A stretch of DNA of 42,177 nt, taken from the NCBI GenBank assembly GCA_028689435.1, contig JAQTWD010000003.1:1-42177 (forward strand), given 5' to 3'. The DNA comes from Minisyncoccota bacterium. GTDB lineage: Bacteria; Patescibacteriota; Minisyncoccia; Phycocordibacterales; UBA12079. Every line of letters begins with the position of its first letter. Position 1 is the first letter of the stretch. Below are positions 13,621 through 38,294 of the stretch, one piece after another. Under the pieces are notes generated by a model. The model saw only the letters and a list, made by a program, of their open reading frames with translations, searched no databases and was not told where the DNA came from. A program made the position numbers and the translations under genes.

Positions 13621-13720
13621 TTGCAAAATTGTTTTTTTAGTTTATAATCAACAGATAATAAATACGTCCATATTGGATAATATTTACAATAGAATATAGT
13701 AGAATATAGAATAAATGCAC

Positions 13721-13738
13721 GCGTCGGTACTCAAGTGG
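13721..13738 (+). pseudogene. partial copy of the tRNA-Tyr 5' end (acceptor strand and D-arm start)
   Basis: gcgtcggtactcaagtgg identical to 13900-13917, with duplicated upstream sequence. Confidence 0.85.
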
Positions 13739-13899
13739 ATAAAAAGCGTTTAAGCTTTTTATCCGGTTCCGAGCAAAGCGAGGAAATTGCCGAAGTTGAG
13801 CGAAGCGAAACAGGCAATAGGTGGACAATGGGGCAGACCAATCTGCCCGAGTGAAAAATCGCTCGCATAAATTTACAATAGAATATAGAATAAATGCAC

Positions 13900-13981
13900 G
13901 CGTCGGTACTCAAGTGGTCAACGAGGGCAGACTGTAAATCTGCTGGCTTAGCCTTCGCAAGTTCGAATCTTGCCCGGCGCA
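13900..13981 (+). tRNA. tRNA-Tyr (anticodon GTA)
   Basis: GCGTCGG/CCGGCGC acceptor (one G-U), anticodon region cagactGTAaatctg, long variable arm, GTTCGAATC T-loop. Confidence 0.92.
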
Positions 13982-14181
13982 CAAAATAAAATACAGAGTT
14001 TTTTGCTCTGTATTTTTATTTTGTAAGTCGAAAGAAAAGTGCCTGCGTACTTTTCGTCAAGATGAGAAAGGAGAAGTCATGTTTTTCGTAGCAAAGCGAA
14101 GAAAAACAGACGAGCCCGGGTAGGAGCCACTTAACGAACACGAGTCCCGAAGGGCGAAGTGTGAGTTTTGTGAGCTGACGC

Positions 14182-14201
14182 CGAATCTTGCCCGGCGCAC
14201 A
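14182..14201 (+). pseudogene. partial copy of the tRNA-Tyr 3' end
   Basis: cgaatcttgcccggcgcaca identical to 13964-13983. Confidence 0.85.
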
Positions 14202-22334: not shown

Positions 22335-22455
22335 AAAAAAATCCCCGCAGGGATTTTTTGTTACTATCAGCTATAAGCTATTGGCTACCAGCTGTCTTCA
22401 TGAGCCATCTCTCGGATTCGAACCGAGGACCTACGGTTTACAAAACCGTTGCTCT
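22335..22455 (-). pseudogene. partial tRNA-Thr copy (22403-22455) with its duplicated downstream terminator region
   Basis: about 119-bp direct repeat with 22596-22714; tRNA identity ends in the D-loop (gctct|cccacc). Confidence 0.85.
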
Positions 22456-22661
22456 CCCACCTATTTCCTATTCGTCTTTCGACAAGCTCAAGACTCATAA
22501 CGGAAATTTTTTGCTAAAGCAAAAACCGGATAAAAAGCAAAGCAGTTTGCTTTTTATCCAACTGAGCAAACGCTCAGTCGTTAGAACAACAAACGAAAAA
22601 TCCCCGCAGGGATTTTTTGTTACTATCAGCTATCAGCTATTGGCTACCAGCTGTCTTCATG

Positions 22662-22734
22662 AGCCATCTCTCGGATTCGAACCGAGGACCTACGGTTTAC
22701 AAAACCGTTGCTCTACCGACTGAGCTAAGATGGC
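22662..22734 (-). tRNA. tRNA-Thr (anticodon TGT)
   Basis: GCCATCT/AGATGGC acceptor, ACGGT-TTTGTAA-ACCGT anticodon arm, GGTTCGAATCC T-arm. Confidence 0.93.
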
Positions 22735-22800
22735 GACTACCAACTACCAACTACCAACTACCAACTACCAACTGCAAAATTATATATTATTATAAAAAAA

Positions 22801-37540: not shown

Positions 37541-37571
37541 AAAAAGTTGGCGGTCCAACCGCCAACTTTTT
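37541..37571. repeat. REP-like palindrome 1 (loop CCA), overlapping the RAYT stop codon
   Basis: AAAAAGTTGGCGGT-CCA-ACCGCCAACTTTTT. Confidence 0.95.
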
Positions 37572-38244
37572 AATCCCCATATCTTTTTTCATTTATATTT
37601 TTTGCTATTCCTTCTGAAATCTTTTTATAATTATTTATATCTGTGTATTGTCCTAGAATAATTCCCTTTTCACACAAATTATACTTGCTATTTTTATTAG
37701 TGTATTCATCCCAACTAGATCTATTTGGTATTGAATCCAAAAAATGTTTTCCGAATTTTTCAAATTTTGGGTGAACTTTGTTATTTAAGTTAACATAAGC
37801 GCTTGCATACAATAATTGTTCATTTGTTTCTATATGAACAGCCTTGAATTTGCCTTGAAATAACGCCCCACTTCTTTCGTATTTATTATTGATATACCAA
37901 GTATAGCCACCATTTAATCTTTTCATAAATTCACTTATTCCACCTTCAACCAACTGTTCTAATATAAAATGGTAGTGATTTGGATTTAAACAATAACAAA
38001 TGATATTTACCAATCTTCTTTTATCTCCAGAAAAGTTGGCGGTCCAACCGCCAACTTTTCTAATCTTTTTAGATTTATTTATAAGAAATATATCATTGCC
38101 AGATTCGACATTATTAAATTCTTCCATACTTTGAAGAAATCTAAGTGCGTCATATTTATCCATAAATATATGCCTTTTATCTACCCCTCTGTTGAAAATA
38201 TGATAATATTCCTTTTGAACAAATGGTGTTTTTCTATTTCCCAT
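37570..38244 (-). CDS. REP-associated tyrosine transposase (RAYT / IS200-like Y1 family)
   Basis: YYHIFNRGVDKRHIF, CYCLNPNHYHFIL (HUH), GISEFMKRLNGGYTWYINNKYERSGALFQGKFKAVHI; ATG at 38242-38244. Confidence 0.92.
   Translation of the reverse strand: MGNRKTPFVQKEYYHIFNRGVDKRHIFMDKYDALRFLQSMEEFNNVESGNDIFLINKSKKIRKVGGWTANFSGDKRRLVNIICYCLNPNHYHFILEQLVEGGISEFMKRLNGGYTWYINNKYERSGALFQGKFKAVHIETNEQLLYASAYVNLNNKVHPKFEKFGKHFLDSIPNRSSWDEYTNKNSKYNLCEKGIILGQYTDINNYKKISEGIAKNINEKRYGD
38030..38060. repeat. REP-like palindrome 2 (loop CCA), inside the RAYT CDS
   Basis: GAAAAGTTGGCGGT-CCA-ACCGCCAACTTTTC; translated as RKVGGWTANFS. Confidence 0.95.
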
Positions 38245-38259
38245 ATTTGTATATAATAA

Positions 38260-38294
38260 CACAAAAGTTGGCGGTTGGACCGCCAACTTTTGTG
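38260..38294. repeat. REP-like palindrome 3 (loop TGG, opposite orientation), just upstream of the RAYT
   Basis: CACAAAAGTTGGCGGT-TGG-ACCGCCAACTTTTGTG. Confidence 0.95.

Follow-up and report, generated by a model that had tools for sequence, protein, structure and literature searches.

The window, that is, the whole stretch of 42,177 nt of Minisyncoccota DNA analysed here, contains a tRNA-Thr and a tRNA-Tyr gene, each of which stands intact beside a broken copy of itself. At both loci the break coincides with a compact folded element, termed E, and a second type of element, T, lies downstream of the tRNA-Tyr gene. In the feature list, R1 denotes a covariance model of E built from three copies, R2 a later model of E, and R3 a model of T.

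tRNA-Tyr locus
13721–13738, plus strand: partial copy of tRNA-Tyr, positions 1–18 (100% match), which stops at the D-loop GG
13737–13824, plus strand: E element, Tyr copy, three hairpins (R1 113.9 bits, as founding sequence; R2 96.6 bits; fold z −4.1)
13825–13849, plus strand: remainder of the tRNA-Tyr copy, in which the anticodon stem snaps back in antisense (GGGCAGA..TCTGCCC; from the sequence, 10-nt antisense run)
13867–13917, plus strand: duplicated promoter region and tRNA-Tyr 5' end, restoring the gene (direct repeat D1; empty site in CP011215.1)
13900–13982, plus strand: intact tRNA-Tyr(GTA) (ARAGORN, RF00005)
14064–14185, plus strand: diverged T element of the T-loop type, downstream of tRNA-Tyr (R3 27.5 bits, E 1e-4)
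14182–14200, plus strand: displaced tRNA-Tyr 3' end, positions 65–83 (100% match), closing the T cassette
tRNA-Thr locus
22661–22734, minus strand: intact tRNA-Thr(TGT) (ARAGORN; RF00005 74.7 bits)
22572–22590, plus strand: antisense D-arm copy, complementary to the tRNA-Thr D-arm (inverted repeat I2, 19 nt, 89%; antisense 10–28)
22558–22567, minus strand: 5' part of a sense D-arm, GCTCAGTTGG, preceding E (from the sequence)
22457–22559, minus strand: E element, Thr copy, three hairpins (R2 72.7 bits; fold z −4.8)
22337–22458, minus strand: displaced tRNA-Thr part, from the D-loop to the 3' end, with terminator

At tRNA-Thr, the first-pass annotation had recorded a direct repeat of 119–121 bp and a second tRNA truncated at its D-loop. 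Both are real: the repeat links 22337–22458 with 22596–22717 over 122 nt at 98% identity, and the truncated copy retains the D-loop-to-3' part and the terminator, while its missing 5' acceptor strand is replaced by the reverse-complement D-arm at 22572–22590. Just upstream of tRNA-Thr, the heptamer ACTACCA is repeated 5.4 times (22736–22773); a similar TAGTTGG array occupies the same place by tRNA-Thr in CP011215.1. At tRNA-Tyr, the broken piece is the 5' part (positions 1–18) and not the 3' part. The promoter region upstream of the gene is also repeated alongside this partial copy, repeat D1 comprising 13695–13738 and 13874–13917. Given the diverged T behind it, the tRNA-Tyr gene of the window carries both E and T.

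The window contains exactly two instances each of the motif pair GGATAAAAAGC-N-GCTTTTTATCC (shuffles predict 0.00) and of AATAGGTGG (0.24 expected), in each case at the two positions first noted. The common hairpin start and AATAGGTGG end are thus genuine, but they underestimate the shared unit, which is the entire three-hairpin structure of 88–103 nt.

Structure and distribution of E

E has the architecture GG-(hairpin 1)-GG-(hairpin 2)(hairpin 3)-AGGTGG, with three adjoining hairpins in 87–103 nt, GA-rich internal loops, and GAA triloops closed by GC. Four copies in the source genome, the two of the window plus those at loci L003 and L004, have fold z-scores of −3.7 to −6.6. Across 68 distinct aligned sequences, two-sided changes are found in 27 of 28 pairs, with 308 compensatory cells compared to 74 ± 9 in shuffles and with 97.6% of cells paired; the alignment is model-fitted and hence favours pairing, yet slid controls pair at just 42–58%. 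Some of the lowest scorers among the 69 E matches are partial or opposite-strand palindromes. G.U pairs make up about 2.6% of the pairs in E, compared to 4.0% and 4.5% in tRNA stems from these genomes, a difference that selection for pairing as DNA would predict. GCGAAGC forms an unusually stable DNA mini-hairpin. The GC-closed GAA triloops and the low G.U share therefore point to DNA rather than RNA as the form of E, although the contrast in G.U is small and neither feature is decisive. Rfam matched only tRNA in the window; its other matches, obtained at permissive E-values, remained far below gathering score, and several of these sub-threshold matches fall on the tRNAs themselves.

The proposal of an element family of roughly 88–103 bp targeting tRNA D-loops gains support from related genomes. 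With R1, E was found in 10 of 13 genomes searched. Among 61 order relatives, 19 had it at E ≤ 1e-4; these comprise every one of the 11 genomes of the host's family and also members of other families of the order. With R2 under strict filters, 6 of 380 phylum genomes contained it, all from the host's order, so that E looks lineage-specific. The genome searches were blind to tRNA positions; within the genus, a single genome yielded up to about 10 strong copies. The first-pass annotation had conceded that the shared position would be coincidental if the hairpin occurred mainly away from tRNAs, but 67 of the 74 copies taken as loci have a tRNA no more than 500 bp away, on the same strand in 66 of the 67 cases. 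Among the remainder, three are at contig ends, one adjoins tmRNA (L045), and three (L146, L151 and L155) come from loci that contain no tRNA. The closed genome CP011215.1 (G004) has 9 E hits, none of them more than 700 bp from a tRNA or tmRNA; the zone so defined covers 5.7% of the genome.

On its left, E usually joins the D-loop GG in a partial copy of the tRNA next to it, as seen for Tyr, Thr, Ser, Leu, Lys, Ile, Val, Asn, Phe and Glu; at Leu-TAG, E occupies an anticodon-loop position (L083, L087). In most D-loop cases, the GG is kept on the left, and the nucleotide T next to it in the intact tRNA gives way to a purine on the right of E. One E directly follows another at L066, and in several loci E is nested at a like place in T, namely at a G-run inside the T core (e.g. 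L132). In 21 of 47 upstream E cassettes, a run of 12 nt or more is antisense to the local tRNA, compared to 0.2 cases expected. In IMG/VR viral contigs, the one match to E stems was a long perfect hairpin without an adjoining tRNA and no proven E, and T patterns gave no T-like context; with no viral-contig match proving to be E or T, we rejected a phage origin.

T elements, partial tRNA copies and empty sites

T is a second structured element, found downstream of many tRNAs and inserted at T-loops. It is bordered on the left by an antisense tRNA 3' end (positions ~72–52) and on the right by a sense copy (54–74), and in 17/17 extracted units these two tRNA arms pair and close the structure. R3 detects T in all 11 family genomes, with 15–20 copies per genome in the genus; it occurs in tandem at Gly and Ala tRNAs. 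All 17 T hits of CP011215.1 have a tRNA or tmRNA within 700 bp, and 14 of them lie downstream of it on the same strand.

A survey of tRNA neighbourhoods detected partial self-copies within 700 bp of 23/36 tRNAs in G004 and 23/37 in G000 (46/73). Under a strict criterion, which demanded runs of 15 nt with no more than one mismatch, copies of the tRNA itself were present upstream in sense at 17 and in antisense at 8 of the 73, and downstream in sense at 22 and in antisense at 10, compared to 0–2 of 73 with another tRNA as query. At loops, sense copies frequently turn back into antisense. Certain partial copies are devoid of E, so that duplication may precede insertion. At L129 (G000, tRNA-Ile GAT), tandem partial tRNA-Ile copies without E are accompanied by a different core near the anticodon arm.

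We compared G000 with CP011215.1 at tRNA-Tyr and tRNA-Phe. At tRNA-Tyr, G000 has E together with a 51-bp duplication of the promoter region and positions 1–18, whereas in CP011215.1 the copy is single and uninterrupted. At tRNA-Phe, G000 carries about 226 bp that are absent from CP011215.1; this insertion starts exactly in the T-loop and contains a tRNA 3' end, a new terminator-like hairpin, an antisense arm and T. The original 3' end has been displaced in G000 together with its flank, and both still match CP011215.1. Both tRNAs are intact with and without the cassette. The cassettes that we read measure about 180–230 bp and restore the split tRNA end. These empty sites could also represent precise losses instead of insertions; the comparison does not polarise gain and loss.

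Possible origin and mobility of the elements

We tend to favour, with some reservation, the explanation that E and its sister T are non-autonomous, fold-dependent mobile DNAs that parasitise tRNA loops. E encodes no protein and would act via a folded single strand, single-stranded DNA being its probable active form. It would insert after GG exposed in the hairpin loops of tRNA genes, mainly the D-loop, and T likewise at T-loops. Insertions would persist only as cassettes that put back the split tRNA end, with the broken copy remaining beside the intact gene: D-loop cassettes would put back promoter and 5' half, T-loop cassettes the 3' end with a new terminator. By bringing spare tRNA halves, the insertions would leave the real tRNA gene working; selection presumably spared such tRNA-restoring events, while others were lost. 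Mobility would be conferred by a recombinase or transposase supplied in trans.

It seems unlikely, if conceivable, that the cassettes are instead scars of integrative elements, that is, tDNA islands with tyrosine integrases that were deleted to their attachment regions, E and T being conserved folded att sites. The Islander study defined tDNA islands by a regenerated tRNA plus a displaced fragment and required an integrase and at least 2 kb (PMC4383910). The same signature is found at the Tyr and Phe empty sites and in T cassettes, tandem in places, and tmRNA is likewise a target. In splitting and then restoring a tRNA, displacing a fragment and forming tandem arrays, E/T cassettes would operate as tDNA islands in miniature, but differ from them in size and gene content: they comprise about 200 bp and contain no integrase, and CP011215.1 has no Phage_integrase (PF00589) match. 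Islander sites are the anticodon loop, the T-loop and the T/acceptor junction, which includes the site of T but excludes the D-loop, the main site of E, and only 159 of 3919 islands are 5'-fragment islands (PMC4383910), whereas 5' restoration with promoter is common here. The strongly folded core, the antisense tRNA copies and the insertion of E into E and T also set the cassettes apart. Partial tRNA genes resulting from island integration are widespread (PMC9897764).

We consider it rather improbable that E and T are structured RNAs, functional parts of tRNA-linked transcripts whose antisense segments switch tRNA pairing. The covarying structure on the tRNA-sense strand, the segments antisense to the adjacent tRNA in those 21 of 47 upstream cases, and the promoter region duplicated upstream at Tyr would all fit such a role. 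However, presence at the same tRNA varies between congeners, T lies beyond a terminator-like hairpin, E interrupts both T and E, and the structures are low in G.U and without an Rfam family. A related suggestion of the first-pass annotation, splicing of the interrupted copies, did not hold up: those that we read miss 5' or 3' parts, and removal of E leaves no complete tRNA in them, for which reason we rejected a tRNA intron. As no interrupted copy read equals a complete tRNA and an intact gene adjoins, splicing is unlikely. We also considered tRNA-Pro of CP011215.1 as an interrupted gene, but in this 'complete' chromosome it was simply not found by RF00005 and BLAST; relatives have an intact gene, and its absence is possibly due to an assembly gap.

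As a special case of fold-dependent mobile DNA, E could be a REP-type or IS200/IS605-type element moved by a genomic Y1 transposase, for which we see a low probability. IS200/IS605-derived MITEs have subterminal hairpins, generate no clear target-site duplication and insert 3' of a short fixed motif. E likewise has hairpins and may share the lack of a clear target-site duplication, its target being kept on the left, and RAYT-like Y1 genes are present in every genome of the host's family. Unlike these MITEs, E targets GG in a tRNA hairpin loop, comes with duplicated tRNA halves and is not linked to a TnpA. With REP/BIME it shares being short, non-coding hairpin DNA in several copies and tandem arrays; unlike REP sequences with their RAYTs, it has three hairpins in 88–103 nt, is essentially confined to tRNA loops and is rarely found at RAYT genes. 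Among 22 loci searched around Y1_Tnp genes, just three carried E, all near tRNAs, and a full element with E ends was not recognised at any. Y1_Tnp (PF01797) had no match in the E carriers G013, G040, G047 and G052. As neither linkage (3/22 loci) nor co-occurrence (exemplified by G013) supports it, we rejected RAYT/Y1 as mobiliser. The RAYT-like Y1 transposase ORF of the window (37570–38286, minus strand) has its own hairpin, AAAGTTGGCGGT..ACCGCCAACTTT, with three copies flanking and inside it, a REP-like set unlike E. Only at L149 (G042) does E lie near an IS200-type Y1_Tnp gene, which carries a stop.

Replication template switching at tRNA/terminator palindromes, generating partial copies with E and T carried by gene conversion, is very improbable: it would agree with sense copies snapping back into antisense at loops and with partial copies lacking E, but leaves the conserved fold, the repeated insertion after GG and the like place of E in T unexplained.

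Returning to fold-dependent mobile DNA, a tyrosine integrase and a reverse transcriptase were rejected as movers too, the former for want of a Phage_integrase match in CP011215.1, the latter with no RVT_1 match in CP011215.1 or G013. For each of the three enzyme types (Y1 transposase, tyrosine recombinase, reverse transcriptase) there is a carrier genome that lacks it, and the mover may be an enzyme acting in trans and present at times, or a host process.

Relation to known systems and implications

Folded att sites are known from integron attC and CTX phage, where the stem of an imperfect hairpin regenerates a double-stranded attachment site. T resembles them in its succession of antisense arm, core and sense arm, but its stem follows each local tRNA, its core is a three-way junction, and it has neither integrase nor cargo gene. 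Double-hairpin and repetitive hairpin elements of sponge mitochondria are found mainly in intergenic regions and rnl (PMC2800124); E and T are similarly small, possibly mobile and without genes, but are located in tRNA loops and accompanied by tRNA restoration. In the open-licence literature, we found no description matching E/T, and the family seems undescribed. Tentatively, it might constitute a new class of protein-less mobile DNA that reads tRNA loops as hairpins (E the D-loop, T the T-loop) and is copied together with the local tRNA half, each insertion rebuilding the gene it splits, at about half of the tRNA genes of the genus; the mover would then be an unrecognised enzyme or a host process.

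Large islands classically land in tRNA genes; they come with an integrase and in most cases restore the 3' end. In the present case, gene-less pieces of about 200 bp restore tRNAs at both ends, at the D-loop as well as the T-loop, and in a reduced genome (Candidatus Campbellbacteria) such partial copies are present at the majority of tRNA loci. A testable question follows, namely what brings folded DNA into the hairpin loops of tRNA genes: a particular enzyme, or a process of repair or transformation in the host. With such partial copies abounding, caution is called for in the annotation of Patescibacteria tRNAs.

Two further tRNA loci are unusual in themselves. At L138 (G000:C37), the acceptor stem of tRNA-Arg(GCG) differs on both sides from that at L105 in CP011215.1, and the old 5' end remains about 30 bp upstream, as in a replaced or hybrid tRNA. 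At L108 (G004:C1:309869-309949), an odd tRNA-like gene has an insertion-like CTCTCTCTT in its D-loop region and an unusual anticodon loop.
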